64,000 nucleotides of DNA, from positions 4,403,117 to 4,467,116 of the forward strand of contig CM069454.1 of the NCBI GenBank assembly GCA_035610835.1, given 5' to 3'. The notes beneath the pieces are model-generated. The model saw only the letters and a list, made by a program, of their open reading frames with translations. It searched no databases and had not been told where the DNA came from. Shown here one piece after another: positions 10,201 to 58,050 of this stretch. The position numbers and the translations under genes were made by a program. This stretch comes from Ophiura sarsii (Eukaryota; Echinodermata; Ophiuroidea; Amphilepidida; Ophiuridae). Position 1 is the stretch's first letter. The number at the start of each line of letters is the position of its first letter.

Positions 10201-13200
10201 CTAATTGATATTAAAATAATGATGCACTTACCAGTTTTTCCTCAACTAATGTATGTTTAAGAAAGATCAAGTAGGGTGTCTCTCCTTTCCAATACATGAA
10301 TCCGACTGTGCCTTCGTTATCTAAAGACTCTCCGGTGAAGAATTGCCACTCATCAAAATCACCAATAATTTTTTCCATGACAAATTTATTAAGTTTGGCC
10401 TTGTATGCAGGCAAGTCCACATCTGGGTGTTTTTCTTTGATGTGGGCTACAAGACTGAAACAGAGAACAGAGCAAGAACAACATTCATAGGGGGTCATGA
10501 TAATAGAGGTGGGCTATATATGGGGTGACATGTGACGACGACGTCATGCCGGGCATTTGGTTGGCAGTTGCCATTGTTCTTGACCAGCGGTGTGCTAGTC
10601 TACTCGTATGCCTTGTATAATTTCACTGTCACACAATCGAACAACACCCCCTGATACTTCCCATCCGAGAACCGACCAAATACAAGGTCTACTGGCATTG
10701 GATTTACAAAAGAACTGTGCTTGAGCACACTAGGGATTACTAGGGACGATGCTTTTTATGCGTCACGATAGTATCACACCCCTTCATAACGCGCTAATAT
10801 TGAATTTGCTGTTTGTACATCTAGAAACGCGTGAAGGGGGTATTTCTGTGGCTGTGTAAGAGTCTCTAGTTATCGTAAACAATGATCAAATTATTTGTCT
10901 CTGTTTAAACGTAAAAAGGTTTTTTATTACACGATATTGAAAGATAGGTAATAGCATGATAATAGTCACATATGCGGAAATGTAGCTATATCTCTGAGGA
11001 ACATATTTTGGGCGAGGACCAATGTCAAAGATAACTCCTAAAGTGTGATTTTAGACCGAAACGGCGGCTATACAGTGCCAGAAAATCGACATTTTGAATT
11101 TATCAAGTGAGCAAGATTCGTCTCTCTGCGAAGACGCATATAAATATTCATATACTTCGTATTTATCGTGTCTGCCATTGGTTAATTTTGAACCCCACGC
11201 GAACAAATTGCTCATTACGTATGCGTCCAATTTCTGGACGAGCACTAATGTAAAAGTATACGGAGGTCAACGAGGTCAATCCAATGCAAGTAGACCTTTT
11301 TTTCCCGGGGGTGAGATCAGAGGATGGGGAGTGGTCCATGGGGAGTGAGCCCCCTATCGGTACATGTTCATAGAGTGACAAAGAAAATGAAAAAGGTATA
11401 CTAAAGCAGACTAGCGGTGTGCATGTGATCCTGTTTTGTTTAGGACCTGTGCTTTTAAAACTCGCGCCAAAACATTATAAAGGGTAATAAGGCATAGTGG
11501 ACAGTGTTGTGGTCATATGCTATTCCCTCAAGCATGTATCGACAGTCCAGTCCCTTCGACCGTTGCTTTTGTTGATAAACATTGCTGTCACCCCATCTAT
11601 AGAGGGTCATATTTAGGTCATAGTTTCAGATCATTTCAAACACCAGATGAATTAACCCTAACTCTACTACACCACACAGTACTGTGTTGTGTTGCTACTG
11701 CGTGGTGCCGTGATCTACAGCATGTGCACACACACTGTGTTGGCTGTGAATCTCTAGAATACTGCACCACACAGTGCGTGGCCTGTGCTTGTCCCTGAAT
11801 ACTATACCATACAGGTTATGATGCATACATATTGCTTTGAATACTACACCTCACAGGCTGTGTTGTGTTTTGCTTGTGTGGTGTAGGGATGTATACATTG
11901 TCATTTTATGGTTTGTGTTGTGTAGTTGTCTAGCCAAAATTTACAGATCGAGTTAGGGTTTTAATGACAGAAAAGTCGGATATCTAGGGTGCCCCGGCCA
12001 AAGATCCCTGAAATGGTGACTATTTTGGCAAAAACAGTAACTCTAGTCATTTGTTGTTCAATTTATTTGATTTCGGTGGCAATACCCATTGGTACAAGAT
12101 GTTATTCCATGCTAGGTTTGTCTCATACAACCCATTTCTTTTTCTTATAATAGCTGATTTTGGTCAAATTTGGACTGGAAGGGTGCTTTGCAAAAAATAG
12201 TGCTATCGCATCAATAATGAATTTGAATATGGAACATTTTAAATGTTGAAACAGGCTATACAGAGGTCAATAAATGCTTTTTTGGTTATTTTTCTTAGAT
12301 AACAGGTTTTTGCCGAGAAGCCGAAGCGTCGTAGCACATTTGAGGCGAGATATCTCAGTATAGTCCACTATCAGCACCAACCACTGTCAAATTTTTAGAT
12401 TGGAAGAAACAGCGCAAATATTAAAGTTGTTACATTCATAGATAAGAATTTCTGATTAGATGAATCAACAAGACATCCAGGTTTATTCAGGCTTTCAACC
12501 AATGATAATGATTGTTTGAGTCGCGCTTCATGGAGTTAATGAATGGTGTATTATTTGTATTTGATTGCTGTTGTTTGATTGAAAAACAGTGGTTAACAAT
12601 TAACAGCAAATGAAAATTAATTTAATTAGTTATGATCAAATTAATTTAATGGTCTGAATTTATTAAGAAATGGTGTTTTTTTTGAAAAAAACTTATTTCA
12701 AATTTGAAAATATTTATAATCTTGAATTATATAAATATTTTGTATCGCATACAAAGAACATGTATTATTATAGCTTATACAGCAGGGCTGTACTTTCGGC
12801 GCGAATCCGCGAATCGATTCGCGTGAAGATTCGCGTAAAATCACTTCCGCGAAAGTACACCCCTGTAACTTGTCGGCAAGGTTTCATATATTTGAGTTAT
12901 AGAGCAAAATAAAGACATCAAAAAAAGTAACTCGGCTGTTGTAAAAGCACCTATAATTTTAAAATTGTTACTCCTATTCTAAAAATGAAAATACCAGGAG
13001 ACAGACAATTTAATTACGGTGATTTTGACACCTTGTTTGTTAAAATCGATAAAGTATTGTTGTCGCGGTATGTGCTTACAAATGAAAAGTGCCATTTCCA
13101 TTATTGCAGTAACTCCTATTGATCTCTCTGATTCAGCGTGAAGATAATAGCGGGAATTTTGATTAGCTGTTCTTGTTGTGCTGTAAACTTGATTAGCATA

Positions 13201-16200
13201 ATCCGGGACAAATTTAATGGGGATGACAGGCGTACTTCTTTACAATTAAAAAGGATGAATTTAAAACTCCAAATGCTCAGAAGGTCCGAGAAGACAGACA
13301 GGACAGGTCATCGCCATGGGCAAACTATCAGAATTCCCGCTATTATCTTCACGCTGAATCAGAGATATCAATAGGAGTTACTGCAACAATGGAAATGGGC
13401 ACTTTTCATCTGTAAGCACATACCGCGACAACAATACTTTATCGATTTTAACAAATAAGTTGTCAAAATCACCGTAATTAAATTTTCCATCTCCTGGTAT
13501 TTTCATTTTTAGGATATGAGTAACAATTTTAAAATTATAGGTGCTTTTACAACAGCCGAGTTACTTTTTTTGATGTCTTTATTTTGCTCTATAACTCAAA
13601 TATATGAAACCTTGCCGACAAGTTCCTTAATGGTATATTAATTATGCGATCTTTTCCAGGGGACACCCTCAATCCTCGAAGAAAAAAAATGGAAGCAGAT
13701 TTTCTGGCAGATTTACATTTCTGATCATAAATTGTACATTCCAAGTTGCTGAGCGATAGGATTCCTAATTACCTCATCAACATGGTTCACTCTAAAACCA
13801 TTATTTTGAAGTAATTAAGAATCGTATCGCTCTGTAACTGGAATCTATTCATGATTTATGATCAGAAATGTAAATCTTCTTCCAATTTATTTTTGAGGAT
13901 AAGGTTTATCGCAGATAGAAAAAAACCCATTGATTATCCTTTTCTGATGCATTGTGGGTGGATTGCGGGTGCAAATCTGCTCCATTTGCGAACCCACAAT
14001 GCATCAGAATAGGATAAGGCCAAACAAAAATAAAAGTTTGTCTCAAAGCTTGCGAAGGCTTCAAAATTGGGCGACGCGCGCTGTTTTTTGTCTTCCATTT
14101 TTTTATTTGTGTGGCAATTTTTACTCTTACTATTTGCAACCGTTGACACTTTCTGATATTTGTTTTTTCTATTTGAAATGAATATTGTGATGTAGTTGTG
14201 TATAAGAACAATTGAGCAGCGTTTTTTGAAGACCTGAGTCATGTAAAAGTTTGAGAAAAGGAAAATCTGCCGATATTTTTAATAAAAACTCGAAATAAAA
14301 ATTTGAAGGGAAAAAAAAAATTGATTTGACAATTTTCTGCATTTCAGACGCGGTATTTTGGCATTTCAAAACCAATGCGCGCGCAAGCTTTGAGACGAAC
14401 CATTTATTTTGTTTGGCCTAATCAATGGGTTTTTTTCTATCTACAATAAACCTTATTGAGGGCTTTTCCTGGAAAAGATCACATAATAAACCTAAAGTTA
14501 CGACATGATACGTCATGTTAAAGGTATATTATGTGATCTTTCCAGGGAACGCCCTCAACATCGAAAAAAAAATAGAAAGCAGATTTTCTTGCAGATTTAC
14601 ATTCTGATCATAAATCATGCATACATTCCAAGTTACAGGGCGATACGATTCTTAATTACTTCAAAATCATGGTTTTAGAGTGAAAATAAACTGTCGGAAT
14701 CCCGACAGTTTATATATTTTCACTAAATTCACTCTAAAACCATGATTTTGAGGTAATTAGGAATCGTATCGCTCTGTAACTTGGAATGTATGTATGATTT
14801 ATGATCGGAAATGTAAAACTGCAAGAAAATCTACTTTCTAAAAAAAAATCATGAATAGAGGGAGCTCTCTGGAAAAGATCACATAATATGCCTTTAATAA
14901 ATAATCCACTTACAGTGCGACAAATTTTTTAACGTAGCCTTTAAATGTTTTTTTGTTGAATTTAGTTTCTTGTAGCTTGTTGTGTAGCACGATGTTGACG
15001 CCAGATACTGCGTTAGTGTCAGCTTCATCACCTCCTTCATCCTCTGCTGATTTGTTGGCACCAAACTTACTCTCATCAATATTGTCTTTCATTGTCACCA
15101 TCTGCGGAAAAGTTCAAGCATCAATTTATTCAATATTATGTTTGACAACTGATTTGTCTTGTTGGCACCAAACTTACTCTCATCAAGTACGTCTTTCATT
15201 GTCACCATCTGCGGAAAAGTTCAAGCATCAATTTATTCAATATTATGTTTGACAACTGATTTGTCTTGTTGGCACCAAACTTACTCTCATCAAGTACGTC
15301 TTTCATTGTCACCATCTGCGGAAAAGTTCAAGCATCAATTTATTCAATATTATGTTTTAACTGATTTGTCTTGTTGGCACCAAACTTACTCTCATCAAGT
15401 TCATCTTTCATTGTCACCATCTGCGGAAAAGTTTCAATTTATTCAATATTATGTTTGACAACTGATTTGTCTTGTTGGCACCAAACTTACTCTCATCAAG
15501 TACGTCTTTCATTGTCACCATCTGCGGAAAAGTTCAAGCATCAATTTATTCAATATTATGTTTTAACTGATTTGTCTTGTTGGCACCAAACTTACTCTCA
15601 TCAAGTACGTCTTTCATTGTCACCATCTGCGGAAAAGTTTAAGCATCAATTTATTCAATATTATGTTTGACAACTGATTTGTCTTGTTGGCACCAAACTT
15701 ACTCTCATCAAGTACGTCTTTTATTGTCACCATCTGCGGAAAAGTTCAAGCATCAATTTATTCAATATTATGTTTTAACTGATTTGTCTTGTTGGCACCA
15801 AACTTACTCTCATCAAGTACGTCTTTCATTGTCACCATCTGCGGAAAAGTTCAAGCATCAATTTATTCAATATTATGTTTTAACTGATTTGTCTTGTTGG
15901 CACCAAACTTACTCTCATCAAGTTCATCTTTCATTGTCACCATCTGCGGAAAAGCATCAATTTATTCAATATTATGTTTGACAACTGATTTGTCTTGTTG
16001 GCACCAAACTTACTCTCATCAAGTTCATCTTTCATTGTCACCATCTGCGGAAAAGCATCAATTTATTCAATATTATGTTTGACAACTGATTTGTCTTGTT
16101 GGCACCAAACTTACTCTCATCAAGTACGTCTTTTATTGTCACCATCTGCGGAAAAGCATCAATTTATTCAATATTATGTTTGATAACTGATTTGTCTTGT

Positions 16201-19200
16201 TGGCACCAAACTTACTCTCATCAAGTACGTCTTTTATTGTCACCATCTGCGGAAAAGCATCAATTTATTCAATATTATGTTTGACAACTGATTTGTCTTG
16301 TTGGCACCAAACTTACTCTCATCAAGTACGTCTTTTATTGTCACCATCTGCGGAAAAGCATCAATTTATTCAATATTATGTTTGACAACTGATTTGTCTT
16401 GTTGGCACCAAACTTACTCTCATCAAGTACGTCTTTCATTGTCACCATCTGCGGAAAAGTTCAAGCATCAATTTATTCAATATTATGTTTAACAACTGAT
16501 TTGTCTTGTTGGCACCAAACTTACTCTCATCAAGTTCATCTTTCATTGTCACCATCTGCGGAAAAGTTAAGCATCAATTTATTCAATATTATGTTTGACA
16601 ACTGATTTGTCTTGTTGGCACCAAACTTACTCTCATCAAGTACGTCTTTCATTGTCACCATCTGCGGAAAAGTTAAGCATCAATTTATTCAATATTATGT
16701 TTGACAACTGATTTGTCTTGTTGGCACCAAACTTACTCTCATCAAGTTCATCTTTCATTGTCACCATCTGCGGAAAAGTTCAAGCATCAATTTATTCAAT
16801 ATTATGTTTAACAACTGATTTGTCTTGTTGGCACCAAACTTACTCTCATCAAGTTCATCTTTCATTGTCACCATCTGCGGAGGAAAAGTTCAAGCATCAA
16901 TTTATTCAATATTATGTTTAACAACTGATTTGTCTTGTTGGCACCAAATTTCTTTCATTGTCACCATCTGCGGAAAAGTTCAAGCATCAATTTATTCAAT
17001 ATTATGTTTGACAACTGATTTGTCTTGTTGGCACCAAACTTACTCTCATCAAGTTCATCTTTCATTGTCACCATCTGCGGAAAAGTTCAAGCATCAATTT
17101 ATTCAATATTATGTTTAACAACTGATTTGTCTTGTTGGCACCAAACTTACTCTCATCAAGTTCATCTTTCATTGTCACCATCTGCGGAAAAGTTCAAGCA
17201 TCAATTTATTCAATATTATGTTTAACAACTGATTTGTCTTGTTGGCACCAAACTTACTCTCATCAAGTTCATCTTTCATTGTCACCATCTGCGGAAAAGT
17301 TCAAGCATCAATTTATTCAATATTATGTTTGACAACTGATTTGTCATTGATTGATTGAATTTCATTCATAATATGCCAATCGATATTCACTCATCAAAAA
17401 AAGTAAAAAACACTGCAAGTCACGACTTGCGAATCCCCCTGGCTGGGAGATCAACTAAATGAGGTCAAAGGTCACATAGGGGTCTTACTCTCATCAAGTT
17501 CGTCTTTCATTGTCACCATCTGCGGAAAAGTTCAAGCATCAATTTATTCAATATTATGTTTGATAACTGATCTGTCATTGATTGATTGAATTTCATTCAT
17601 AATATGCCAATCGATATTCACTCATCAAAAAAGTAAAAAACACTGCAAGTCACGACTTGCGAATCCCCCTGGCTGGGAGATCAACTAAATGAGGTCAAAG
17701 GTCACATATGGGTCATGTTCCCCCATTGTTCATTTCTCCAAGTTTGACATCAATCGGGCAACTTTTACGATTTGACCTCTGGATGACCTTTGACCTCAGA
17801 TGACCTCTAATTATTTGTTGTCATGTTCCCCCGGTGTTCATTGCAGTTTCACCCTCTATTGACCCTAGATGACCTCTAATGACCGTTGACCTCAGATGAC
17901 CTCTTATTAATTTTAGACATGTTCACCCGGTGTTCATGTTTCTTTTCTCCAAGTTTCACGTCAATTGGGCAACTGTTACGATTTGACCTCCAGATGACCT
18001 TTGACCTCAGATGACCTCTAACTATTTTTTGACATGTTCCCCCGGTGTTCATTGCACAATTTAACCCCTTGTTGACCTTTCACCTTGGATGACCTCTAAT
18101 GACAGATGACCTCGGATTACCTCTCATTAATTTTAGACAAGTTCACCCAGTGATCATGTTTCTTTTCTCCAAGTTTGAAGTCAATCGGGCAACTTTTACG
18201 ATTTTACCCCTGGATGACCTTTGCAAATTAGACCCAAAAAAAAAGCAGCCACAGTTTTTGACCATGGCTTACCTATCGATGAAAGTTTGAAGTCAATCTG
18301 TCCATCCGTTCAAAAGATACAGCATTCGGAAAAAAGGCTAACCAAAAGGCACAGACGGACATTGATATGATAAAATCCCCTTAAAACCAGGGGGATAAAA
18401 ATAGGGACAGCTGTCCCAAATAGGTCGTCCGTACGGTCCGTTATGGGTAGATTAAAAACGAGAGCATCAATGATGCAGAAGCTCACTACAGCTGAGAATT
18501 TGGGAAAATTCATAACTCATAATACATGTCTATATATGAAGAGCTTTGTTGCAAAAGGGCTATGGTGCATTTTTTTCAAAAATGAGTTTGATATAGAAAT
18601 GTATAGGGAAAAATCTTATGTTTCAAGGAAACAAAGTCATTTTTCAAAAAGTCATTTTCAAAAAGTCATTTTTTTCTCATTGTAAACAGCCATTGAAATT
18701 GTTGCAAAATGGCCTGTGTCCAGAATTAAATCGGGATACAGGCCCTTTTGCAACAAAACAACAACTTCAATGGCTGTTTACAATGAGATGTAGGTCTTTT
18801 TGAAGAAAAAAATGACTTCATTTCCTTGAAACATGATTGTGACCTATACATTTCTGTATCAAACTTCTTCTTTTTTAAATGATTAAAATAAATGATTTTG
18901 TTTGAGTGGTATTTTTTCTCTATGTACAAACAGATGGAGTTTTGTTGCAAAAGGGCCTAGGCCTACATCCAAATTTTCAAAAAATGTAAACATGATTTAA
19001 TTTTTTTTGAAAACTAGCACATTTGGAATGTATTTCAATTTAAATTAGTATGTAGTGTACCTCTTTCATAATCCATTCAGTTTTTCAATTGCTCAACTTG
19101 AATATTTAGAAACAGTTTTTTTAAACTTTTTCTCAATAAGAGCCAAAGTGGATGGCAGGCCCTTTTGCAAAAAACCTCTTCATATTGTAAACCACTATAA

Positions 19201-28200: not shown

Positions 28201-31200
28201 CAAAATATACGGCACGAAAGCACGCAAATTCAGCATTTTGGCAAGGCAATATTCGCAAGTTTTACTCTTTTTCGCGAATTTCTAATAGCACTTCATGATG
28301 AAAAACCTTTGAAAACATCATTTTCCATTAATTTTGGCCGCTGAAATCGGAGATATATTTTGAAGAATATATACAGAAGCGATTTAACATCATTAACGAA
28401 AAACGACCTCCCCCCATTTTTCACTTTGACGACTGTATTTTACTTTCAGCTGATTTCGTATCATGAATAATAATGAGTCTCTAGTAGTTAAACCAATCAC
28501 AATAAGACAATCACGCTTGCACGTCATAATACATGCGTGTCATTTGTTAATCAATTTTCTATTAATAGCATTTACATGCATTTTCAATACAATTTTGACA
28601 ATAAAGAAAATAACGCGAAATTGCCTATTTTGTCGAATGGCAATCAAGCCCATTTTATAACATATTTATGCGATCATATTGTTTCACTATCTCAAGTACA
28701 TTTCCCGACAAATACCACTTGTGTGACCAAGATAAAACCATATTTCACAGTCGCACTTTCCCCTTGACCTATACCGTGACCTTTCGCTTCGAGTCGCTAT
28801 AGCTTACTTGTAGTAAGCTAACAAGGTGGCTCTCAAACCAAAGAAAGAGGACATAGCCTCCTTGTTAAAGACATAATAAGTAAACATCATAATCTAAATA
28901 AATAAACATCCTGGAGTTTGGTTGCAGATGACCTTTGACCTTGGTATGTGACCTTTGACCTCATTAACATATGAAGGTTTCCATGTTGCATCCAAGTTTG
29001 GTATAAAATTGGTCATTGTATGGAAAAGAAATAGACAAAACAAAAAGTGTGTACCAATTGTTGACAGACAACACAGACACAGACTACACAGACAAAGGAG
29101 GCGATGCAGCCTTAAGGTCTCTCTCCTACGGACGACCTAAAAATGTGCTTATAAAGTTTTCAAGAAATGACCCTCCTTAATTTTAGATACTAGTAGTATT
29201 GCATAAGAATGGTTTGATGTCAACGAAGATAAATGTAGACTTGCGTCAAGTCTCTCTTGTTAATGTTAGTGATCTATCTGTTTGTTTTGTTGCCATATAC
29301 ACCAGTCATCATGGTCATGAACTGAGTCATACTTAGACTTGCGTCAAGTCTCTCTCGTTAATGTTAGTGATCTCCATCTGTTTGTTTTATGTTGCCATAT
29401 ACACCAGTCATCATGGTCATGAACTGAGTCATACTTAGACTTGCGTCAAGTCTCCCTTGTTAATGTTAGTGATCTCCATCTGTTTGTTTTGTTGCCATAT
29501 ACACCAGTCATCATGGTCATGAACTGAGTCATACTTAGACTTGCGTCAAGTCTCCCTTGTTAATGTTAGTGATCTCCATCTGTTCGTTTTATGTTGCCAT
29601 ATACACCAGTCATCATGGTCATGAACTGAGTCATACTTAGACTTGCGTCAAGTCTCCCTTGTTAATGTTAGTGATCTCCATCTGTTTGTTTTGTTGCCAT
29701 ATACACCAGTCATCATGGTCATGAACTGAGTCATACTTAGACTTGCGTCAAGTCTCCCTTGTTAATGTTAGTGATCTCCATCTGTTTGTTTTGTTGCCAT
29801 ATACACCAGTCATCATGGTCATGAACTGAGTCATACTTAGACTTGCGTCAAGTCTCTCTTGTTAATGTTAGTGATCTCCATCTGTTTGTTTTATGTTGCC
29901 ATATACACCAGTCATCATGGTCATGAACTGAGTCATACTTAGACTTGCGTCAAGTCTCCCTTGTTAATGTTAGTGATCTCCATCTGTTTGTTTTATGTTG
30001 CCATATACACCAGTCATCATGGTCATGAACTGAGTCATACTTAGACTTGCGTCAAGTCTCTCTTGTTAATGTTAGTGATCTCCATCTGTTTGTTTTATGT
30101 TGCCATATAATAATAATAATAATAATGGTAATTTATAAAGCGCCGGTATCCGCCGCAAGCGACGCTCATGGCGCTTCTCTGCATAACAACCAAAATAACA
30201 TAAACACGAATAGGAACAAAGATGAGGAGAGTCACATCAAGCAAATGCTTCAGAGTACAAATATGTCTTCAAGTTTTTCTTAAAAATATGTACAGAGTTT
30301 GACAGTTTCACATATTCAGGCAAGCTATTCCATAGTTTCGGTGCTGCGACTTGAAAACTTCGCTGTCCCCACTGATGTTTAGCCAATGTTTCCTGAAGAA
30401 GACTTTGTTTTGAAGAGCGTAGCCCGCGATGCCCTGGCACATATGGTTGAACAAGTTCTGTTAAATAAGAAGGAGCTGCATCATGTAAGATTTTGAAAAT
30501 AATAAGACATATCTTGTATTTCAGTCTCTGTTCAATTGGAAGCCAGTGTAGGTCCGCTAATACAGGAGTTATATGATCTGTTCTCTTAGTATAGGTTATA
30601 ATCCGGGCGGCTATATTCTGCAATCGTTGAAGGCGAGAGAGTTGTGATGTTGTAATTCCATATAGAAGTGAGTTATTGGAGTCAAGTCTGGATGTTACAA
30701 ATGCATGAATGATGGTTTTAGCTGCATCCCTTGTTAGATGTAGACGGATTCTGCTAATGTTTCGTATTGAGCAGAAAGCAGCCCGTGATACTGCTGTCAC
30801 ATGGCAGTCCATTGTTAGATTGGAATCAAACATGACCCCCAAGTTGCGTACATTTGCAGCTGGCACTACATAAGATCCACCCACCCTAACATGTTGAATA
30901 TTGACCTTTGCGATTTGTTGTTTGGATCCGAGAATCATGAATTCTGTCTTTGAGTCGTTCAACTTCAGAAAATTGGTATTCATCCATGTTTTGATATCAT
31001 CAATGCAGCGTTCAATTCTGTGAAGCGCAGAGTCAACATCTGCTTGCACAGGTTTTACAGACAAATACATCTGCGTATCATCTGCGTAGCGGTGATAATT
31101 CAGTTGATGCCGACGAATGATATCTCCCAATGGCAAAGTATAGATAGAAAATAGTCCGGGTCCGACACACGAACCTTGTGGTACTCCATACTTCATTTGC

Positions 31201-34200
31201 TTGAAATCTGAAATGTCATTGTTTATGCAGATCGCTTGAGATCTACCTGAGAGGTATGATATAAACCAGTCCAAAGCGACACCGTTAACACCAATTCTAT
31301 GTTGAAGGCGTTGAAACAACACAGCATGGTCTACAGTATCGAACGCTGCTGACAAATCGAGTAGGACAATTAGTGTGATTTCTCCCTCATCAGTGGCATG
31401 CAACACATCATTCTGTACTTTCAGAAGTGCGGTTTCCGTGCTATGGAAAGCACGGTATGCTGATTGGTAATCCTCATTAAGATCATGTTGTTGTAGAAAG
31501 GGTTCTAGCTAGAATTACACGTTCTAAAGTTTTGCCGAGAAATGTCAGATTTGATACTGGTCTATAGTTCTTGAAAATGTTGCGGTCGAGATTTGCTTTC
31601 TTTATAAGTGGTCGAACATGAGCAACTTTCAAACTATCTGGGAAAACACCAGTCATCATGGTCATGAACTGAGTCATACTTAGACTTGCGTCAAGTCTCC
31701 CTTGTTAATGTTAGTGATCTCCATCTGTTTGTTTTGTTGCCATATACACCAGTCATCATGGTCATGAACTGAGTCATACTTAGACTTGCGTCAAGTCTCC
31801 CTTGTTAATGTTAGTGATCTCCATCTGTTCGTTTTATGTTGCCATATATACACCAGTCATCATGGTCATGAACTGAGTCATACTTAGACTTGCGTCAAGT
31901 CTCTCTTGTTAATGTTAGTGATCTCCATCTGTTTGTTTTATGTTGCCATATACACCAGTCATCATGGTCATGAACTGAGTCATACTTAGACTTGCGTCAA
32001 GTCTCTCTTGTTAATGTTAGTGATCTCCATCTGTTTGTTTTATGTTGCCATATACACCAGTCATCATGGTCATGAACTGAGTCATACTTAGACTTGCGTC
32101 AAGTCTCCCTTGTTAATGTTAGTGATCTCCATCTGTTTGTTTTATGTTGCCATATACACCAGTCATCATGGTCATGAACTGAGTCATACTTAGACTTGCG
32201 TCAAGTCTCTCTTGTTAATGTTAGTGATCTCCATCTGTTTGTTTTATGTTGCCATATACACCAGTCATCATGGTCATGAACTGAGTCATACTTAGACTTG
32301 CGTCAAGTCTCTCTTGTTAATGTTAGTGATCTCCATCTGTTTGTTTTATGTTGCCATATACACCAGTCATCATGGTCATGAACTGAGTCATACTTATCAC
32401 TTAAAGGCATATTATGTGATCTTTTCCAGAGAGCGCCCTCTATTCATGATTTTTTTTAGAAAGTAGATTTTCTTGCAGATTTACATTTCCGATCATAAAT
32501 CATACATACATTCCAAGTTACAGAGCGATACGATTCCTAATTACCTCAAAATCATGGTTTTAGAGTGAATTTAGAGTGAAAAATATAAACTGTCGGGATT
32601 CCGACAGTTTATTTTCAGTGAAAAATATAAACTGTCGGGATTCCGACAGTTTATTTTCACTTTAAAACCATGATTTTGAAGTAATTAAGAATCGTATCGC
32701 CCTATAACTTGGAATGTATGCATGATTTATGATCAGAAATGTAAATCTTCAAGAAAATCTGCTTTCTATTTTTTTTTCGATGTTGAGGGTGTTCCCTGGA
32801 AAGATCACATAATATACCTTTAAGTGGGCGTGGTACTCAAATGGGAAATTCCATGATTTGTTGGCATGACCTGAAAATGTTAATTCAATTTGGGTGCTAA
32901 TTACCCATTTTATCTTGTAATTTACGTTCGAGATAATGCGAGATACCGTTAGCGCATGCATATTCAGTACGTTCATTAAATGCAAAGACTACACGTAGCA
33001 ACTATGTGTTTGGTCGAGTGAATTAATTTGTTTTCCTAAAAAATCCAACATTCCGATTAAATCGGGTTGGATAAAGTTTTTAAAAAACCTGTAGAAAAAA
33101 GTAAACAATAATCGTACATTATGGAATGGACCCACGTCACATGAGGTTGAGCTCGCGTAAAGTACGCCTGCTCAACCTCACCCCAAAACGGTCCCGTGGT
33201 TCTCCGTTGTGCGCACTACGTCATCTCGACCTCAAGGCTCTGATTGGTTGGTGCTCAAACATGAGAACTGAAAAACTCATGAGCTTTTCCACGCACCATC
33301 ACGCTCCACTGCGCGTCGGTGGTTATGGCGCAGCAGGAGCACTGCATTGGTGGATACGGCGCAGCGTGACGATCGTTAAAAAGTCTTCAGTTTAAATTTG
33401 ACCAATCAGGTGCTTTGGTGTTGTTGGTTGGCAGTATTTTGTGAGTTCAAGCATGCGTGCGCAGCCTGGTCGAAGTGCGCCCACGTATGTCGAACTGTGG
33501 CCAGGAGATTATGTGCCGTAGGTCCATCGAGCAAGATCTCTAACACAACCATTATAAATGTCAATTGGTAACACCAACAAAAGAAAATGGTAACGAATTC
33601 TGAAGTCGGTGAAAGCTCAAAGCAAATCAAGACCGATAACGGCCAAAAAGCGTAACAGCTTCTGGCTGTATGATTTTGTAAGATGCATTAGGGTTAGGGA
33701 TATTATTTAATGGGCTATATCTAGACGTCCGGTACAGAATAAACCATGTACTAGTATTACAAGACATTTTAAATGGTTTTGAGCATATGCACATCAGTTA
33801 CGCCTTACAGGACGCCTATCAATATTGTCATTTAATGCACTCACCTTTCCTTCGAGCTCATAATAAAAATCATCAACCTCTTTGAACCTGTAGACTGAGG
33901 TGAACAACTCATCCCCTGTATTGAAAAATAATTAGAGAATGATTTTGTTAATAAATATCTAGCTTGTGACGTCCTTAAACTGGAGACCTCACATCCCTTA
34001 TCATCTGACCCCCATGGCCTGAAAAAATGGTTTTTTTCCTGGCAAGCGATTCCAAATTTCCCTCCAAAATGGAATGCATTTCTTAATGAAAGAGTAACAT
34101 TTCCCTCCAAATGCCAAATTTCCCCTCCAAATGCTCAAATTTCCCGGCAAGGAGCTTTCCGTATTGCCTACTTTTTCAGCCTGTGCTGACCCCCCCTACT

Positions 34201-34986
34201 TTTGGTTATAACTTTGTTGTCATTATTCACCCTGCTGACATGGTTGAACCACCAGTTTTTATTGTAAAGTACTTCGACTTCGTTTCCATGTAGGCCTATT
34301 CCATTTTCAAAGAGATATTTTTATTTTCAAAATGTTATGAACATGCCTAACTCAGATAGGCCATGGACTTATTATTAGAATAAGTCCATGGATAGGCCTA
34401 GCCTAGGCCAGGGCTTTTACTTTTAGCTAGCCTATGGATGCCATGATGATGCGTCGTCGAATTGCTCAAATCTTAAATCAAAGTTTAAAAAAGGTAACGC
34501 TGTTGTGACGCTGGTGAGGCTGTTCTACAACGCACTTCAGTGTTGACGCTGTACGTTGTCACAGAAAAAAGTGCGGTATCAGGGCGTAGCCTAATCCGAT
34601 TATCATGATTATGGACGCGATCGTATCCGTATCTATCACGAATCTGAATGTGATACATTAACATTATTATTAAATTATTACTTGAAAGTCCCCGCCCACA
34701 CGCTCATTAACTAGATCGCCACAGGCGGTTTCAAAAAGTGCCGAAGTATTCTGACGACGACTATTATAGGAGACAGATGAATATTAGTATGGGAGAGGGG
34801 ATTGCGACACCAGCCGTATCACAATAACAATGACATTTACGCCTAATCGTACCCTACGAATGTGACATATAGAGACCACAATTTTATGAAATATATAGAT
34901 AAAGATACATTACATCCTACTTCAGAGGTTAGCAAATTATTTAAAATTTATGTTTTACCACTTTTGAAGTCTTTGTAGAGTAACAT
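7200..34986 (-). CDS. TPT1: Translationally controlled tumour protein (TCTP), five-exon gene
   Basis: Coding exons read on the minus strand are 34986-34959, 33915-33845, 15101-14914, 10454-10232 and the stop codon at 7202-7200. Coding lengths 28+71+188+223 give exactly 170 codons, junction phases 1, 0, 2, 0, all introns GT/AG. The protein begins [14 protein letters not shown]. It shows family signature 1 (FGANKSAED, about residues 45-53) and signature 2 (WQFFTGE, in exon 4), plus [13 protein letters not shown], which matches the family's GVDIVMNHxLQET block. Length fits the usual 168-173 residues. Glu12, reported to matter for Rheb contact in the fly protein, is present. TCTP is an abundant cytosolic calcium- and tubulin-binding growth and survival factor. 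Introns are about 1.0, 18.7, 4.5 and 3.0 kb, swollen by repeats. Splicing is inferred from sequence; family identity is very secure, the last exon less so. Confidence 0.92.
7275..7636. mobile_element. Inverted-repeat MITE (TAGGCTATATT / TTTGTCTCAAAGCT family)
   Basis: The left arm TAGGCTATATT then TTTTGTCTCAAAGCTC is mirrored by GAGCTTTGAGACAAATC then AAATATAGCCTTA. The GTCTCAAAGCT inner arm also occurs at about 14038 and 14385, so it is a repeated family. It lies in TCTP intron 4 just upstream (gene sense) of the last exon acceptor. Confidence 0.6.
7911..8670. mobile_element. hAT-like non-autonomous element with 8-bp target duplication
   Basis: Perfect 16-bp ends CAGGCCTCGAAATAAG / CTTATTTCGAGGCCTG are flanked by TTTAAGGG at 7903-7910 and 8671-8678. 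Inside are GGGTCCTC and GGGCCC-rich subterminal stretches and no transposase. It sits in TCTP intron 4. Confidence 0.9.
9281..9882. mobile_element. hAT-like non-autonomous element, GGGCCGC-rich ends
   Basis: Ends CAAGCATGTGCAACCT and, inverted, CAAGCGTGTGCAACCT (one mismatch in 16), flanked by perfect 8-bp repeats CTTTACAC (9273-9280, 9883-9890). Subterminal GGGCCGC motifs resemble the hAT style in which GCGGCCCG follows the terminal repeat. The body carries GCGCGTAGCGCGCGAA-like words. It lies in TCTP intron 4. Confidence 0.9.
10232..10454 (-). CDS. TPT1: TCTP coding exon 4 (C-terminal, with signature 2)
   Basis: The exon is 223 nt, preceded by TTCTCTGTTTCAG and followed by GTAAGT. It completes Leu96 and encodes [46 protein letters not shown] and [16 protein letters not shown]. 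This is the conserved C-terminal TCTP half, with the T-G-E turn and the TPY-I-F-K strand. Without splicing at the donor the frame would add six residues (VSASLF) before a stop at 10211. The splice is preferred because the donor is consensus and the family ends about here. Confidence 0.92.
10530..12782. other. TCTP intron 3, left part, no gene
   Basis: Mostly unique AT-rich DNA. From about 11670 to 11900 a degenerate repeat of CACCACACAGT / ACTGTGTTGTG words recurs in both orientations. No exon-like frame was found. Confidence 0.4.
12783..12865. mobile_element. Tiny 83-bp palindromic hAT-like element
   Basis: Ends CAGGGCTGTACTTTCG and GCGAAAGTACACCCCTG are mirrored, and the centre is built of GCGAATC / GATTCGCG words. 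No target duplication is visible, since a foldback element abuts its right end. Confidence 0.5.
12867..13624. mobile_element. Foldback element with ~292-bp inverted arms
   Basis: The arm 12867-13158 (AACTTGTCGGCAAGG to GCGGGAATT) is nearly a perfect mirror of 13332-13624, leaving a ~173-bp spacer. No transposase. RNA from either strand of this intron would form a long hairpin. Confidence 0.85.
13626..14495. mobile_element. Copy of the TATATTATGTGATC palindromic MITE split by a nested element
   Basis: The outer arms (TGCGATCTTTTCCAGGGG near 13645 and CCTGGAAAAGATCACAT near 14468) belong to the family at 14522 and 32405. Between them an inserted element about 13899-14456 has its own ends (ATAAGGTTTATCGCAG / TACAATAAACCTTAT) and contains a GTCTCAAAGCTTGCG arm pair. 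A hairpin on TGATGCATTGTGGGT lies at about 13945-14008. Confidence 0.65.
14522..14893. mobile_element. TTAA-flanked palindromic MITE next to TCTP exon 3
   Basis: Ends AGGTATATTATGTGATC and GATCACATAATATGCCT sit between TTAA (14518-14521) and TTAA (14894-14897). Arms of ~180 bp pair almost fully; the centre is AACTGTCGG / CCGACAGTT. Its right boundary is about 20 bp from the exon 3 donor. Confidence 0.88.
14914..15101 (-). CDS. TPT1: TCTP coding exon 3 (central, with signature 1)
   Basis: The exon is 188 nt, starting at 15101 right after CTTTTCCGCAG and ending at a GTAAGT donor (14913-14912). It encodes [20 protein letters not shown] and continues through the acidic loop, [13 protein letters not shown] and [10 protein letters not shown], ending two bases into a Leu codon. 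Two oddities: its acceptor and first ~54 nt are repeated 22 times just upstream, and a TTAA-flanked MITE begins about 20 nt past its donor. An internal GAGAGTAAGT makes a second donor-like site 31 nt into the exon. Confidence 0.92.
15102..17345 (-). repeat. Tandem array of TCTP exon 3 acceptor plus exon start (21 contiguous decoy units)
   Basis: Units of mostly 101-107 bp, oriented as the gene, each contain ~50 nt of intron end, the acceptor TTTTCCGCAG, and a copy of the exon 3 start encoding MVTMKD(V or E)LDESKFGAN. The unit then diverges (a 3-nt insertion, then CAGTTGTCAAACATAATAT) and re-enters the next intron-end copy. I counted 21 copies of the CCGCAG acceptor block between exon 3 and 17340. 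Two exon-like versions alternate (GTACTT and GAACTT where the true exon has AATATT). Units around 15.9-16.4 kb lack TTGAAC before the pyrimidine tract. One unit near 16950 has an internal deletion. The exon-like segments appear free of stops and frameshifts. Confidence 0.95.
17344..17707 (-). repeat. Detached 22nd decoy unit inside a ~230-bp duplication
   Basis: A flanking block beginning TTGATTGATTGAATTTC and running to AGGTCAAAGGTCACATA occurs twice (about 17344-17477 and 17576-17707). Between the two lies one more copy of the decoy acceptor and exon start (about 17486-17575). The outer end of the array was therefore duplicated once as a larger block. Confidence 0.8.
17708..18440. repeat. 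TGACCT-rich degenerate repeats in TCTP intron 2
   Basis: Blocks of TGACCTTTGACCTCAGATG, GTTCCCCCGGTGTTCATT and CCAAGTTTGA-GTCAATCGGGCAACT recur at ~120-200 bp spacing and end in TAGGTCGTCCGTACGGTCCG. A related block with the same TGACCTTTGACC words and a CTACGGACGACCTA end is at 28769-29140. These look like decayed copies of one dispersed family. Confidence 0.6.
18540..19200. repeat. Cluster of TTGCAAAAGGGC-containing inverted and direct repeats
   Basis: TTGCAAAAGGGC occurs near 18549 and 18939 and inverted near 18740 and 19160. TCATTGTAAACAGCCATTG is mirrored by CAATGGCTGTTTACAATGA around 18680-18785. These are remnants of a foldback MITE family with no coding content. Confidence 0.6.
19271..20456. 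mobile_element. Helentron/HINE-like element carrying a 129-bp tandem array
   Basis: It begins with TATATAATAATACGC and a TCTGTCTGTCTG tract and ends with repeated CGGGTGACCG words and CCCTTCTATAT. From 19431 to about 20370 there are ~8 units of ~128-130 bp starting GGTCAAAGGTC(A/G)TCTA and containing CTTAAACTCGG and GAGCGTGGAAAAAATA. Non-autonomous Helentrons often carry internal arrays. No Rep/helicase is present, so the class is inference. Confidence 0.45.
20457..23258. other. TCTP intron 2 stretch with MITE remnants, no gene
   Basis: GGCCAAGTAAAAATAAAA near 20734 and TTTTTTATTTGGCC near 21458 form a loose inverted pair. CTTGGCGAGTTTAC (22083) and GTAAACTCGCCAAG (22142) plus CGTAAACACCGC words form a second at about 22054-22180. 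A C-run is at 22780-22795. No exon was seen. Confidence 0.45.
23258..28125. repeat. Composite tandem array A-B-A-B-A-B-A-B-B-A
   Basis: Module A is 468 bp in all five copies (23259-23726, 24230-24697, 25205-25672, 26178-26645, 27657-28124), with mirrored ends GGGAGCACACCACTA / TAGTGTTGTGCTCCC. Module B (503-508 bp; 23727, 24698, 25673, 26646 and 27154 starts) differs between copies mainly in the length of one G-run. One junction is B-B (27153/27154), lacking A. The copies look essentially identical, so expansion is recent. The whole lies in TCTP intron 2. Confidence 0.9.
23259..23726. mobile_element. Module A: 468-bp MITE with GGGAGCACA inverted ends
   Basis: This is the first of five equal copies. 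The ends mirror over about 20 bp with a few mismatches. The array is bounded by A on both outer sides, with flanks GTTTTA on the left and TTTACCC on the right. No coding capacity. Confidence 0.75.
28125..29238. other. TCTP intron 2, unique DNA and one TGACCT repeat block
   Basis: From 28125 to 28768 no repeat or exon was recognised. From 28769 to about 29140 lies a block with TGACCTTTGACC, CAAGTTTGGTATAAAATT and CCTACGGACGACCTA, related to 17.7-18.4 kb. Confidence 0.4.
29239..30108. repeat. ~100-bp tandem array, left half
   Basis: Units start ACTTGCGTCAAGTCTC at 29239, 29337, 29439, 29539, 29641, 29741, 29841, 29943 and 30045. Lengths alternate at 100 and 102 bp according to TTTTGTTGCC or TTTTATGTTGCC. 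The last unit stops at GTTGCCATAT, where a LINE enters. Confidence 0.95.
30109..31645 (-). mobile_element. 5'-truncated CR1/L2-type LINE inside the tandem array
   Basis: The minus strand encodes the C-terminal part of a non-LTR reverse transcriptase: [50 protein letters not shown], the YADD catalytic box ([11 protein letters not shown]), then [14 protein letters not shown] and a conserved C-terminal block ending YLYSEAFA. The only clear break is a frameshift near 31500, so the copy is young. The 3' end is a (ATT)n tail (plus-strand ATAATAATAAT at 30108-30125). It is in the sense orientation of the TCTP gene. The array resumes in register on the other side, with no evident target duplication. 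Confidence 0.9.
30237..31500 (-). pseudogene. LINE reverse transcriptase, main open frame
   Basis: The frame runs from about 31500 to the stop at 30237-30239 and holds the palm motifs ([22 protein letters not shown]) and the thumb/C-terminal region. A 1-nt frameshift separates it from the upstream part (31677-31483). The endonuclease and ORF1 are missing because of 5' truncation, so the copy cannot move on its own. Confidence 0.88.
31646..32396. repeat. ~100-bp tandem array, right half
   Basis: The array resumes at ACACCAGTCATCATGG, the exact continuation of the unit cut at 30108. Units start at 31684, 31784, 31888, 31990, 32092, 32194 and 32296. Both halves together make about 16 units. Confidence 0.95.
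32405..32819. mobile_element. TTAA-flanked palindromic MITE, second copy
   Basis: Ends AGGCATATTATGTGATC and GATCACATAATATACCT lie between TTAA (32401-32404 and 32820-32823). Same family as 14522-14893. The centre carries a tandem doubling of the AAACTGTCGGGATTCC / GACAGTTT hairpin core. It directly abuts the end of the ~100-bp array. Confidence 0.88.
32824..33844. other. TCTP intron 2, start of intron, locally GC-richer
   Basis: No repeat family recognised. Between 33125 and 33480 GC content rises, with CpG-containing words and two CCAAT-type boxes (GATTGG near 33242, CCAATC near 33401). This could be an internal regulatory segment; nothing else supports that. Confidence 0.3.
33845..33915 (-). 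CDS. TPT1: TCTP coding exon 2
   Basis: The exon is 71 nt, preceded by TTTTTCAATACAG and followed by GTGAGT. It encodes (G)[13 protein letters not shown], then [10 protein letters not shown], matching the family pattern DEMFSD-YKI-E-D-L-EVEGK. It ends in phase 0 exactly where TCTP continues with Met-Val, which is how exon 3 begins. A different reading frame here gives an 89-residue open frame that is only a shadow. Confidence 0.9.
34959..34986 (-). CDS. TPT1: TCTP coding exon 1
   Basis: The start codon is at 34986-34984 with A at -3 in the minus-strand reading. The exon encodes MLLYKDFKS plus the first base of a Gly codon and ends at a GTAAAA donor (34958-34957). TCTP proteins typically start M-[IL]-[IL]-[YF]-[KR]-D, so a very short first coding exon fits. 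The next exon supplies GG to finish Gly10, then Asp11-Glu12. Confidence 0.85.
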
Positions 34987-42730: not shown

Positions 42731-43494
42731 AATAAATTTTACAATTTTGAAACATTTTGGGCTAAACTTTAGAATACCCTACCATTTTTGAAGCTCCACC
42801 TTTTTTTTTAATCATCTTCGACGGCGCGAAGCTCAACCTTTTAAAAAATAAGGCAACATCGAAAAGGTCTTCCTTTTTCAATATCACCTTCGCCAGCGCG
42901 AAAGCACCGCTTGTGAACCATCATCATCGACGGCGCGAAGCTCAATCTTTTTTCAAAACAATCAACATCGGCGAAGCACCGCTGATGAAGCCATCATCAT
43001 CGACGGCGCGAAGCTCAATCTTTTTTTCAAAACAATCAACATCGGCGAAGCACCGCTGATGATGCCATCATCATCGACGGCGCGAAGCTCAAGCTTTTTT
43101 CAAAACAATAGTATTTTGTATAATTTTCAAACCTCAATGACATAATACAGTCCTCAAAATAAGTAACTGACCAGGTAATAAATATATTCTAACTCCAAAA
43201 CTATTATAGCTCCTATACGTCTAATGTGGGGTTGATTATAATAATGTGGTTTTATGATATGCTGTGTGATATTAAATCCTTGATTAAGGATCATTGGCAC
43301 TGCCGTCCGGCACCCAGACGATGGCGGACACGACGAACGGCCGTAAATTTTGAATTTCCGTTGGTTTCAATGCAATAATGGATTTTGATCATATCCCCCC
43401 TATAAAATTCATCACACGTGGGAATTAAATTATTTTATCTTAAAACCACTGGACTTGTATAACCAACTCAAGTGTCAGTAGTACTTAAGCGTCC

Positions 43495-46009: not shown

Positions 46010-47660
46010 AAAAAAAAGATTGAGCTTCGCGCCGTCGATGATGATGGCTTCATCAGCGGTGCTTCGCCGATGTTGATTGTTTTGAAAAAAGGATTGAGTT
46101 TCGCGCCGTCGATGATGATTGTTTCACCAGCGGTGCTTCACCGATGTTGATTGTTTTGAAAAAAAGATTGAGCTTCGCGCCGTCGATGATGATGGCTTCA
46201 TCAGCGGTGCTTCGCTGATGTTGATTATTTTGAAAAAAGGATTGAGTTTCGCGCCGTCGATGATGATTGTTTCACCAGCGGTGCTTCACCGATGTTGATT
46301 GTTTTGAAAAAAAGATTGAGCTTCGCGCCGTCGATGATGATGGCTTCATCAGCGGTGCTTCGCTGATGTTGATTATTTTGAAAAAAGATTGAGCTTCGCG
46401 CCGTCGATGATGATGGCTTCATCAGCGGTGCTTCGGCGATGTTGATTGTTTTGAAAAAAGGATTGAGCTTCGCGCCGTCGATGTTGATGGCATCATCAGC
46501 GGTGCTTCGCCGATGTTGATTGTTTTGAAAAAAGATTGAGCTTCGCGCCGTCGATGATGATGGCTTCATCAGCGGTGCTTCACCGATGTTGATTGTTTTG
46601 AAAAAAAGGTTGAGCTTCGCGCCGTCGATGATGATGGCTTCATCAGCGGTGCTTCGCCGATGATGATTGTTTTGAAAAAGGATTGAGCTTCGCGCCATCG
46701 ATGATGATGGCTTCATCAGCGGTGCTTATCAGCGGTGCTTCGCTGATGTTGATTGTTTTGAAAAAAGATTGAGCTTCGCGCCGTCGATGATGATGGCTTC
46801 ATCAGCGGTGCTTCGCCGATGATGATTGTTTTGAAAAAGGATTGAGCTTCGCGCCGTCGATGATGATGGCATCATCAGCGGTGCTTCGCCGATGTTGATT
46901 GTTTTGAAAAAAGATCGAGCTTCGCGCCGTCGATGATGATGGCTCCATCAGCGGTGCTTCGCTGATGTTGATTGTTTTGAAAAAAAGATTGAGCTTCGCG
47001 CCGTCGATGATGATGGCTTCATCAGCGGTGCTTCGCCGATGTTGATTGTTTTGAAAAAAGGATGGATCTTCGCGCCGTCGATGATGATTGTTTCACCAGC
47101 GGTTCTTCCTCGCGATGTAGATTTGTTTAGAAAAAAGGTTGAGCTTCGCGCCGTCGAAGATGATGGCTTCAACACCGGGACTTCGCTGATGTTGATTGTT
47201 TTGAAAAAAGGTTGAGCTTCGCGCCGTCGAAGATGATGGCTTCAACACCGGGGCTTCGACGATGTAGATGTTTTTAGAAAAAAGGTTGAGCTTCGCGCCG
47301 TCGATGATGATGGTTTCACGCCGGTTCTTCCTCGCGATGTAGATTTATTTAGAAAAAAGGTTGAGCTTCGCGCCGTCGAAGATGATGGCATCAACACCGG
47401 GGCTTCGACGATGTAGATGTTTTTAGAAAAAGGTTGAGCTTCGCGCCGTCGAAGATGATGGCTTCAACACCGGGGCTTCGACGATGTAGATGTTTTAGAA
47501 AAAAGGTTGAGCTTCGCGCCGTCGATGATGATGGTTTCACCGCCGGTCTTCCTCGCGATGTAGATTTATTTAGAAAAAAGGTTGAGCTTCGCGCCGTCGA
47601 AGATGATGGCATCAACACCGGGGCTTCGACGATGTAGATGTTTTTAGAAAAAAGGTTGAG
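46010..47660. repeat. ~74-bp CTTCGCGCCGTCGATGATGA tandem array
   Basis: About 22 units share GAGCTTCGCGCCGTCGA, GATGATGGCTTCATCAGCGG and TTGATTGTTTTGAAAAAA. From about 47100 a second subtype (CAACACCGGGGCTTCGACG, ATGTAGATGTTTTTAG) takes over. A 163-codon minus-strand frame at 46716-46225 is a by-product of the repeat. Confidence 0.92.
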
Positions 47661-47837
47661 CTTATCTATTCTGCCTTGTACTTAGAAAAATCAGCGCGAT
47701 ATTTCTCTAAGTGTTGTCCCTTAGCTCGTTTGTTGAAGATCATAACGGGATACATCACGATCCGCGGCGTCGAAGAGATTGTTAAAAAAAAGGCAGCTTC
47801 GAAATGGTAGGGTATTCTAAAGGTACTCCACATTTTG

Positions 47838-51935: not shown

Positions 51936-52234
51936 ATGAATGTTTGAACGCATTAAACACAATGATATGGCGGTTTTCAAAGTCACCAACTTGATCCCAT
52001 TACCAATAGATGTTAACAATCAAAGGCACTCACAACTTGATCATATTGCTATCTTCAGAACTAAATAGCTACACGCCATAACACTTGATTGCAATATCTT
52101 TAGAACGAAACTCCAACAACCCACAACACTTGGTCGCTAAATCTTCCATCAGAACTAATGCGAACCAACCCTAATGTCGATGATGACACATTGAACCTTT
52201 GCGGCGTTCAATCCTCAACCCCACATTGGCTACT
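51936..52234 (+). other. GPR161: Probable 5' UTR part of the first coding exon of the GPR161-like gene
   Basis: A very strong acceptor (TTTCTTTGCTTCTTTTCAG, ending 51935) starts this exon. The 299 nt before the ATG have several short upstream ATG frames, for example ATG AAT GTT TGA at once after the acceptor, which would damp translation. A spliced leader exon must lie further upstream. Confidence 0.5.
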
Positions 52235-52596
52235 ATGACGGATAACAGCTCATCTTCAGACAATAACTCTATGGACCTGGACAACGTGTTGATACTCTCT
52301 GTCAAGGCCATTTCGATAATCCTCATGTTGGCATTAATATGTGGACTAAACTACCTCGTAGCCTACACCCTTCACAACAAATCCCATTATCTACAACAAA
52401 GCGCGGGAAATCGATTTGTTTTCTGTCTGTCGGTTTCAAACTTTATATTTGGCGCTGTTGTGCTGCCTTTTAATTTTATAAGTTGTATTGTTGACGAATG
52501 GATATTTGGCATTATGATGTGCAATCTTACTGGTTTCGTTACCATGACAGTATTTACTGGAAGTATAATATCTATTGTTGTCATCACCATTGACAG
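52235..52596 (+). CDS. GPR161: GPR161-like receptor coding exon 1 (TM1-TM3)
   Basis: The exon starts at the first in-frame ATG and ends inside the Arg codon of DRY at donor GACAG/GTTAGT (52597). It encodes the extracellular N-terminus, TM1, TM2 and TM3. A TTG upstream at 52199 is not a credible animal start. The reading frame closes soon after the donor, supporting the splice. Confidence 0.85.
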
Positions 52597-55500
52597 GTTA
52601 GTGTAAAAGCCACATATTTGATACATGTTCAAACCCATTGCTACACTACCCCCTACTTCTATAAAAATGTCGTCCTTTTTTAATTTAAATCGGTTCCGAC
52701 TTCGTATTCCATTATATCCATGAACGACCGATGATGATAAGGAATGATGCTGTGTATGTATAAATCTTTCAGTTAGAGTATAACGACTCCCCTGATTTGA
52801 ACCTGGTTAATCAGATGGAATGTCACCATCATGGTCACGTCCCACAAATCATTTATTTTTGGGATTGCTTAGGGTATTTTATTAACTTGATTAGCACAGT
52901 TAAGCCTAATCATCTAATTTATCCTTGTTCTCCCTGCACAGGTATTACGCTATAGTTCAACCGCTACTCTACCCCATTAAAATAACCAGCAGACGCACAA
53001 AGGAACTCATCATCGTCATCTGGCTGATGTCACTCTTGGGAAGTCTTCCACCTCTGTTTGGATGGTCCCGTTACACATGGCTGAAGTCAACGTCCAACTG
53101 TCTTGTGCAATGGGATATAGACCCTTCATTTGCATATACATTTACCAGTGTCTTTCTTATCGCACCTCAGTGTATAATGTGTTATTGTTATGGACAGATT
53201 CTCGAGGTTGCCCGTTTGACATCTCGGAGGACGAGCAACGGGAACATAGCCTCGTCAACTGAGTACAATCTTGCGCAAAGAAGACGATCACGAAGGACTT
53301 CTTTGCTGGAAAATATACGGATGAACTCACCGACGAAAGCTATCCGAACGGTTACAATTACTATAGGAACATTAATGATAACAATTGTTCCTTTAACAGC
53401 AGTGATTATCTATCAAGCAATATTCGGTGTGGAAAGTATTCCCGCGTATGCAATTATCCCAGCCACGTGGCTGTTCTTTTGTAGTTTCGTTGCCAATTCG
53501 TGCATCTATGCAGTGTGGAACAAGAGCATTCGTCGTGAACTATTGGGTTATTTTTGTGCACGTGGACGGTGTATGGACGACGATGATGACCCGTCGTTTC
53601 ATGCCAGCAGGAGAAAAAGCTCACAGGCTATCAGTATCAGTGAAAGTATTTCAGTGATCAATGGTTTAACGTCGGTGCCGGAACAAAAGAAATCGTCTGC
53701 GCAGTGCGAGCAAGATGAGGAAATAACAAACGATTCAGGTAAAGTTGACAAATACCTGACACAATTTTGTACAGCTGATATTTTTGAGGTAGATCTTTGT
53801 ATAATAAGCCGATGTACACATTCAATCTGAATTAAGGCTTATCATAGATGGATTGACACTTGACGCGGCAGTTGACCAGCATCAGAGACTTGTTGTTTTG
53901 CCGAGAACCTGTTTTTAAATTTCACGCCAAACAAGATGATAAGAAAATGTATAAGTGGAAGGGCTAGTCCTTCGAACATTGACAAAATCAGTCCCTATTT
54001 GTAAACTCAAAGTCACCTCATTTACACTCCGTCAACTTGCCTCTGGCTCCTTTCTTAGCTCTCAATCCCAGGTTTTGTTGTCTTTACCCCACTCTTTAAT
54101 ATCTCGCTTAACACTTTAACACTTTCCACGCGGCTATTAATTTTACCGTATAGATGAGGTGACCGTTATTTACATTAGTAGTGTTTACAAATTGATTAGC
54201 GCCTGGTCTAAAGACATGTTAGAGGTACTAGTCCATGACTACTGCATACATACTATTCGAAAGCAAAACACACATCACTGAGCGCCAATTTGAAAAGCAC
54301 ATGCCCTTATGGTGCGTACGCATACTGCCGGGCAACCAGATTTAGTACCTGGTCTCTCATTGTGCTTAGGGATGCAGACCATGACTACTGCACTATTACA
54401 CCGTAAGCATGGTAAGTAATGATCAATCAAGTGTGAATTAAAGCATATTCCCTGTAGGTGCGCACGCATACCGCCGGGCACTACGTCACCGGTCACACCA
54501 TCTATACAAAACAGAGTTTTTTTCCTTCAGAAACGGTTCCCTATTTTCAAAGTCTTATCTCACTACTGAACCAATATAAGACATGTTTGTTCTTACTGAA
54601 ATACATTTATCACGATTATATCAAATATGGTAATGACATTAACTCATTTTGACATTCTTGAAAAAATTGTGAAATTTTGGAAGTGTCGTCTGCAGATATC
54701 TGCCGCGTGGAAAGTGTTAATATATAATGGTGATACAAACACTGGTAAAGGACATATAAATTGAATCCATCACCAGAAATAGAGAAATGCTAAGCATTAC
54801 AGGTTGGTTTACGTAAACCTCTGAAAGCTGCAACATTGTATATTATGCTCTTTTTGATTGTCAGGATAAGGCAGTTGATATCGTGACACGACATTGCAAA
54901 TGTACTAGAATCTGCAACCAGCATACATGTGCTATGTATAGACCATTTCAAATTGAGATCGGAAATCTTCGGAAAAACAGGTCACGTGGAGTAGGTGCGT
55001 TGCGCGTTTCGCAACAGTTGATCGCATTCACAGCATTGTCCTAGTTGGTTGTCCGCCTCAGTGATTTACTATGTTCGCATACACGCGTGCACACATGAGA
55101 AGTAAAATGTGGAACGAGACTATTTTGTTTTTTTATCAACAAAGGCGCTGACGGACAAATTCCAAATGTATCGAGCAGACGGTAAAAAGTGAAAATATTA
55201 CCCAAATCTCTTTCATCTCACTTGTTTTTGTAACTGAAATGCCGCAACATCAACTTTGTGAGGGAGACAATCTATCACCAACACCAGCTCAATCTACCAC
55301 ACGGGCAGACGGGTGAAAAACACGTTGTTTTTCTCCGGCACATGGCCATGACCTGTCAGGAGCTGACAGGTCATGGAACCGAGTGTCAAACACTCGGCTA
55401 ATCGTAAACATTCGGAACCGATCGTATATTTTCGGATTTGAAATGGTCTATAGTATGAGTTCTTGGGAAGATCTTGGTACTACTGCGGTCAATATTCGGT

Positions 55501-57850: not shown

Positions 57851-57856
57851 CGTCAC

Positions 57857-58050
57857 TAGTTCGACGCTAGTTCGACGCTAGTTCGACGCTAGTTCGACGC
57901 TAGTTCGACGCAAGTTCGACACTCGTTCGACACTAGTTCGACACTAGTTCGACACTAGTTCGACAGGCTAGTTCGACAGGCTAGTTCGACACTAGTTCGA
58001 CACTAGTTCGACACTAGTTCGACACTAGTTACACTAGTTACACTAGTAGG
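57857..58050. repeat. CTAGTTCGACA minisatellite
   Basis: About sixteen near-contiguous copies of an 11-bp motif (GTTCGAC plus GCTA or ACTA), with two longer variants containing AGG, decaying to ACACTAGTT at the right end. Confidence 0.92.

Follow-up and report, generated by a model that had tools for sequence, protein, structure and literature searches.

Intron 2 of a TCTP gene in the ophiuroid Ophiura sarsii ends in a tandem array of 22 copies of the acceptor and start of exon 3, which run up to the real exon. The gene lies on the minus strand of a stretch of 64,000 nucleotides (assembly GCA_035610835.1, contig CM069454.1, positions 4,403,117 to 4,467,116; hereafter the window, with positions counted from its first letter). 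Lancelet minisatellites composed of duplicated exon/intron boundaries are termed 'mirages' in the available parts of two reports (PMC3087553, PMC3902484). Judged from its sequence, the TCTP array is probably a minisatellite of this mirage type (probability about 0.72), recently amplified and tolerated because splicing depends on recognition of the entire exon 3.

A tandem array at the intron 2/exon 3 boundary

TCTP is usually abundant and is important for growth. The gene in the window was identified by a profile match of its joined exons 3 and 4 to Pfam PF00838 (106.4 bits, with a curated cut-off of 24.3). Four exons with standard GT/AG sites join into a frame of 510 nt, or 170 aa, without an internal stop, and the encoded protein is 68% identical to P0001, 56% to P0002, 43% to Acropora TCTP and only 44% to Branchiostoma TCTP. 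Introns 1, 2 and 3 measure 1,043, 18,743 and 4,459 nt respectively, and a final exon with a stop codon was not located in the window beyond the four exons modelled.

The minus strand contains 23 CGCAG/ATGGTG sites, consisting of 22 decoys (first bases 17519 down to 15208) and the real exon 3 at 15101, which agrees with the 22 same-sense copies of the original prediction. The decoys are arranged head to tail within intron 2, in the sense of TCTP, and adjoin an intact real exon 3. Each is composed of an intron end, CTTTTCCGCAG and then up to ~51 nt of exon 3, so that the tandem unit spans the exon/intron boundary and the repeats hold splice signals while the real boundary is preserved. Units are 101–107 nt long, apart from a 93-nt copy 5 and a 231-nt copy 1, and the Tandem Repeats Finder score of the array, up to 3829, is far above chance. 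The acceptor had been said to be kept in all copies, and its AG is indeed present in 22 of 22, with the exact 11-mer CTTTTCCGCAG in 21 and a 3-nt insert in copy 6. The copied exon start was likewise found, although its length is nearer 51 nt than the ~54 nt first given. When the first 50 nt of exon 3 were aligned by blastn, 20 of the 22 copies matched at 90–92%, copy 1 matched over 36 nt and copy 5 as two short pieces. The exon-like parts are open and TCTP-like in translation, again as predicted, with four copies reading MVTIKD...; over these 50 nt the real exon 3 is distinguished by a small patch, KDNIDE versus KDELDE or KDVLDE, besides the ATG-to-ATA change in those four copies.

Splice signals and the recognition of exon 3

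Three features go beyond the original prediction: a GTAAGT that follows 31 exon-like nucleotides in 20 of the 22 decoys (copy 1 has GTAAGA and copy 5 has none), that GTAAGT as part of the coding sequence of the real exon 3, and, at the end of the array farthest from exon 3, a larger founder duplication. Read from their signals, the decoy units with a donor are complete 31-nt pseudo-exons. Pairing with U1 was predicted for the donors of copies 1, 2, 5, 8 and 22. It gave −6.4 kcal/mol for copies 2, 8 and 22, whose donor sequence is common to all 20 GTAAGT copies, −5.3 for copy 1 and −0.3 for copy 5, and for the real donors of exons 1, 2, 3 and 4 it gave −5.3, −11.8, −6.5 and −10.2 kcal/mol respectively.

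Use of a decoy is predicted to truncate TCTP, as had been proposed, with a premature stop in every product examined. With a single pseudo-exon inserted before exon 3, translation ends after 51 residues in all 21 copies examined (the donorless copy 5 was left out); chains of pseudo-exons built from the 5' end, also without copy 5, stop after 49–51 residues, and read-through from each of the 22 decoys stops after 48–76. At the level of sequence the decoys thus resemble poison exons, being complete exons whose inclusion would bring a premature stop, although poison exons proper are in addition included in mRNA under regulation, and conserved. In mutually exclusive exon clusters such as Dscam, one constitutive exon is likewise preceded by a long series of acceptors and donors in tandem; their units, however, are whole usable exons that keep the frame in each alternative, whereas the TCTP decoys are 31-nt frame-breaking pieces.

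From −56 to +16 the last decoys are identical to the surroundings of the real acceptor, and the remaining decoys are nearly so; local acceptor strength therefore cannot discriminate at the last decoys. Since, in addition, 20 of the 22 decoys have a donor predicted to equal the real one, discrimination must lie in the exon body, enhancers, spacing or order. RNA structure was considered as a discriminator and rejected, given that a stretch of two units is no more stably folded than its shuffles (z 0.68) and that decoy acceptors are predicted to be more, not less, accessible. The decoy copies stop at ~+51, whereas in the real exon 3 a purine-rich tract, which may act as an enhancer, starts at +54 (17 of 20 purines in its best 20-nt windows) and the donor follows at +188. 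Exons of 51 nt or less are described as rare in mammals in the available part of PMC4317164.

With an intron of 18.7 kb upstream, exon 3 would be recognised as a whole exon, and splicing would proceed normally because no decoy shares the body, the purine-rich tract or the +188 donor of the real exon 3. A decoy would offer only a 31-nt pseudo-exon that is hard to define. Most transcripts would then still join exon 2 to the real exon 3, and occasional use of a decoy would yield mRNA with a premature stop that is presumably removed by decay. From the signals described, exon definition is the mechanism of toleration with the best support, and toleration is also the best fitting of the options offered originally. 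The accompanying idea that the last acceptor wins is incomplete, because nearly every unit has a donor and the real exon 3 is set apart by the length of its body, its purine tract and the spacing of its donor.

Origin of the array and alternative explanations

The anatomy of the array points to two steps. A stretch of ~231 nt across the intron 2/exon 3 boundary would first have been duplicated in tandem, and a unit of ~107 nt (56 nt of intron end and 51 nt of exon) would then have been amplified by unequal exchange or replication slippage. The older, larger duplication is visible at the 5' edge of the array and accounts for the 231-nt length of copy 1 and for its resemblance to the exon ending at +36. 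Copy 1 and the real exon 3 are thus outliers at the edges of a homogenised interior, in which copy 5 deviates too, by deletion. Copies 2–22 have a mean pairwise identity of 97.5% (lowest 92.9%), and nine variation events are shared among 20 of them (copy 5 was dropped for its deletion), with three falling in the 51 exon-like columns and six in the 56 intron-like columns. No sign of selection keeping the decoy sites was seen in these 20 copies and nine events: one event touches the splice columns by alignment but is an indel that does not alter the motif, and even zero events there would have had a chance of 0.143. The high identity and the variants held in common are consistent with recent amplification of a minisatellite and exchange among its copies, in which case open, family-like copies would need no selection.

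Several observations weigh against a tolerated array. Overall purine content is similar before and after +51 (67% versus 65%), the U1 pairing predicted for the standard decoy donors matches that of the real exon 3 donor, and the decoy acceptors are predicted to be slightly more accessible than the real one (unpaired 0.52 versus 0.41, and 0.54 versus 0.38). Copies that lie farther apart are not clearly more divergent (Mantel r 0.11, reached by 936 of 10000 permutations), which gives no support to local exchange between copies. Finally, a variable number tandem repeat in intron 18 of human ABCA7, which like the TCTP array is an intronic repeat that includes the real splice site of a constitutive exon, changes splicing according to the available part of PMC5954066. 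That repeat has a 25-bp unit on the donor side, is highly variable in length and is linked to skipping of exon 19, whereas the TCTP unit is ~107 nt long and lies on the acceptor side.

A rival reading is an attenuator, in which the decoys would compete for the exon 2 donor, divert part of the TCTP pre-mRNA into mRNA with a premature stop and set the TCTP level by their copy number. This is unlikely: although the acceptor context of the last decoys, the good predicted donors of 20 of the 22 and the early stop in every product examined are what an attenuator would need, the splice columns are without detectable protection among the copies, the two-unit stretch has an ordinary RNA fold, and the lancelet parallels are reported as harmless in the available text of PMC3087553 and PMC3902484. 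On the same grounds, no positive evidence was found for the earlier suggestions that the array tunes the level of TCTP or acts as a splicing sink. It is just as doubtful that the length of an unstable minisatellite, through 22 competing decoys, sets the output of a growth regulator that would differ between individuals or cells.

That this copy of TCTP is dispensable, with a second gene doing the work and any splicing damage being harmless, is improbable for a gene whose four-exon frame is open over its whole length with standard sites and whose protein is 68% identical to P0001. Still less probable is an assembly artefact, with the copy number inflated or the array misplaced. The array is known from one assembled sequence, and a draft mis-assembled a similar lancelet array according to the available part of PMC3087553; against this, the copies vary in length and sequence with several variants interleaved, and the older 231-nt duplication stands at the array edge. 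That the decoys supply alternative coding sequence, with residues added or exchanged, is barely credible, since the open, TCTP-like parts lead to a stop whether included singly, in chains or by read-through.

Other features of the window and known counterparts

The first 30 nt of intron 2 hold a 'ghost' that resembles exon 3. A 12-nt stretch, GACAATATTGAT, which holds the patch that sets exon 3 apart from the decoys, recurs there at 33829-33818 in the exon 3 register; it is common to exon 3 and the ghost, and has no counterpart in the decoys. When exon 2 was read through its donor and compared with the exon 3 translation, the ghost lay in the matching register. A 12-nt run in common with the start of exon 3 occurs in 20 of 127,940 30-nt windows on both strands, namely exon 3, 18 decoys and the ghost, in a comparison made only after the match was seen. 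The match may stem from a small conversion between the exon 3 start and the ghost or be left over from a spliced template. An origin of the ghost by gain of intron 2 was set aside because the positions of introns 1 and 2 presumably match those of vertebrate TPT1, an assumption for which no source was found.

Table 1. Positions of the TCTP exons, the decoy array and associated features within the window.
Feature	Position	Strand	Remarks
TCTP exon 4	10232..10454	−	ends EEKL before donor CTG/GTAAGT
TCTP real exon 3	14914..15101	−	188 nt, donor ACT/GTAAGT
Purine-rich tract of exon 3	15023..15048	−	+54 to +79, past the copied part; proposed enhancer
Decoy array	15102..17576	−	22 decoys, each with the end of the intron, an acceptor and ~51 nt from the start of exon 3; GTAAGT at +31 in 20 of 22
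Upstream member of older, larger tandem duplication	17500..17714	−	partner 17269-17484, 97.7% alike
Exon-3-like ghost	33815..33844	−	exon 3 register, 20/30 nt alike, 12 consecutive
TCTP exon 2	33845..33915	−	donor AAG/GTGAGT
TCTP exon 1	34959..34986	−	coding part

Intron 2 also contains a 102-bp tandem array at 29236-30109 and 31646-32396. Its two parts are separated by a retrotransposon, which terminates in a run of ATT and has a minus-strand frame for reverse transcriptase (30240-31508, Pfam RVT_1). The 102-bp array was rejected as a further mirage, as it is not at any TCTP exon boundary found. Two similar fold-back stretches, resembling miniature inverted-repeat transposable elements and containing the palindrome AAACTGTCGG...CCGACAGTTT, lie at about 14500-14900, starting just past the real exon 3 donor, and at about 32415-32840, beside the 102-bp array. 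Elsewhere in the window there are a 74-bp tandem unit in opposite orientations (42902-43109, about 3 copies, and 46011-47663, about 22), an 11-bp array of CACTAGTTCGA (57854-58047, about 18 copies) and a 90-bp array (62484-64000, about 17 copies) that runs off the window end. A rhodopsin-type receptor gene of at least two exons occupies 52187-53827 on the plus strand, and the closest named relatives are echinoderm GPR161-like proteins, with matches in Patiria, Lytechinus and Diadema at 41–43%; two further relatives reach 66–67%. As far as the genes modelled go, the other arrays of the window were likewise rejected as mirages, as none of those listed overlaps the two G-protein-coupled receptor reading frames.

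The lancelet mirages are the closest counterparts of the TCTP array. The cases are the globins Gb6 and Gb9, Adh3, TnC and PGBD5, of which PGBD5 is added by PMC3902484, where Adh and TnC are cited, and in the available parts of both sources they are reported without disturbance of splicing (PMC3087553, PMC3902484). The acceptor-side anatomy of Gb6 is the same as that of the TCTP array, and the mirages share with it the many repeats with AG/GT and the edge copies that escape homogenisation. However, Gb6 has 6 and 3 decoys in its haplotypes in that text, compared to the 22 of TCTP, and the TCTP array differs further in the donor-like site of nearly every unit and in its echinoderm host, in which it is known from one assembled haplotype. 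The original prediction knew of no described case: for TCTP this is uncontradicted, with no TCTP paper among the matches listed, but the kind of array had already been described. Among the matches listed from the open-access literature, in a search that took in echinoderms, no mirage array outside lancelets was found, and a boundary minisatellite outside lancelets is therefore probably new. Also new are copy numbers far above the lancelet cases, the presence of a donor in almost all units and the resemblance of the intron 2 start to exon 3.

If the proposed reading is true, the TCTP array takes mirage-type boundary minisatellites outside the lancelets, to a growth-related gene and to far higher copy numbers. 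The array is a natural experiment on splice-site choice, and the ghost may tell how such loci exchange sequence.
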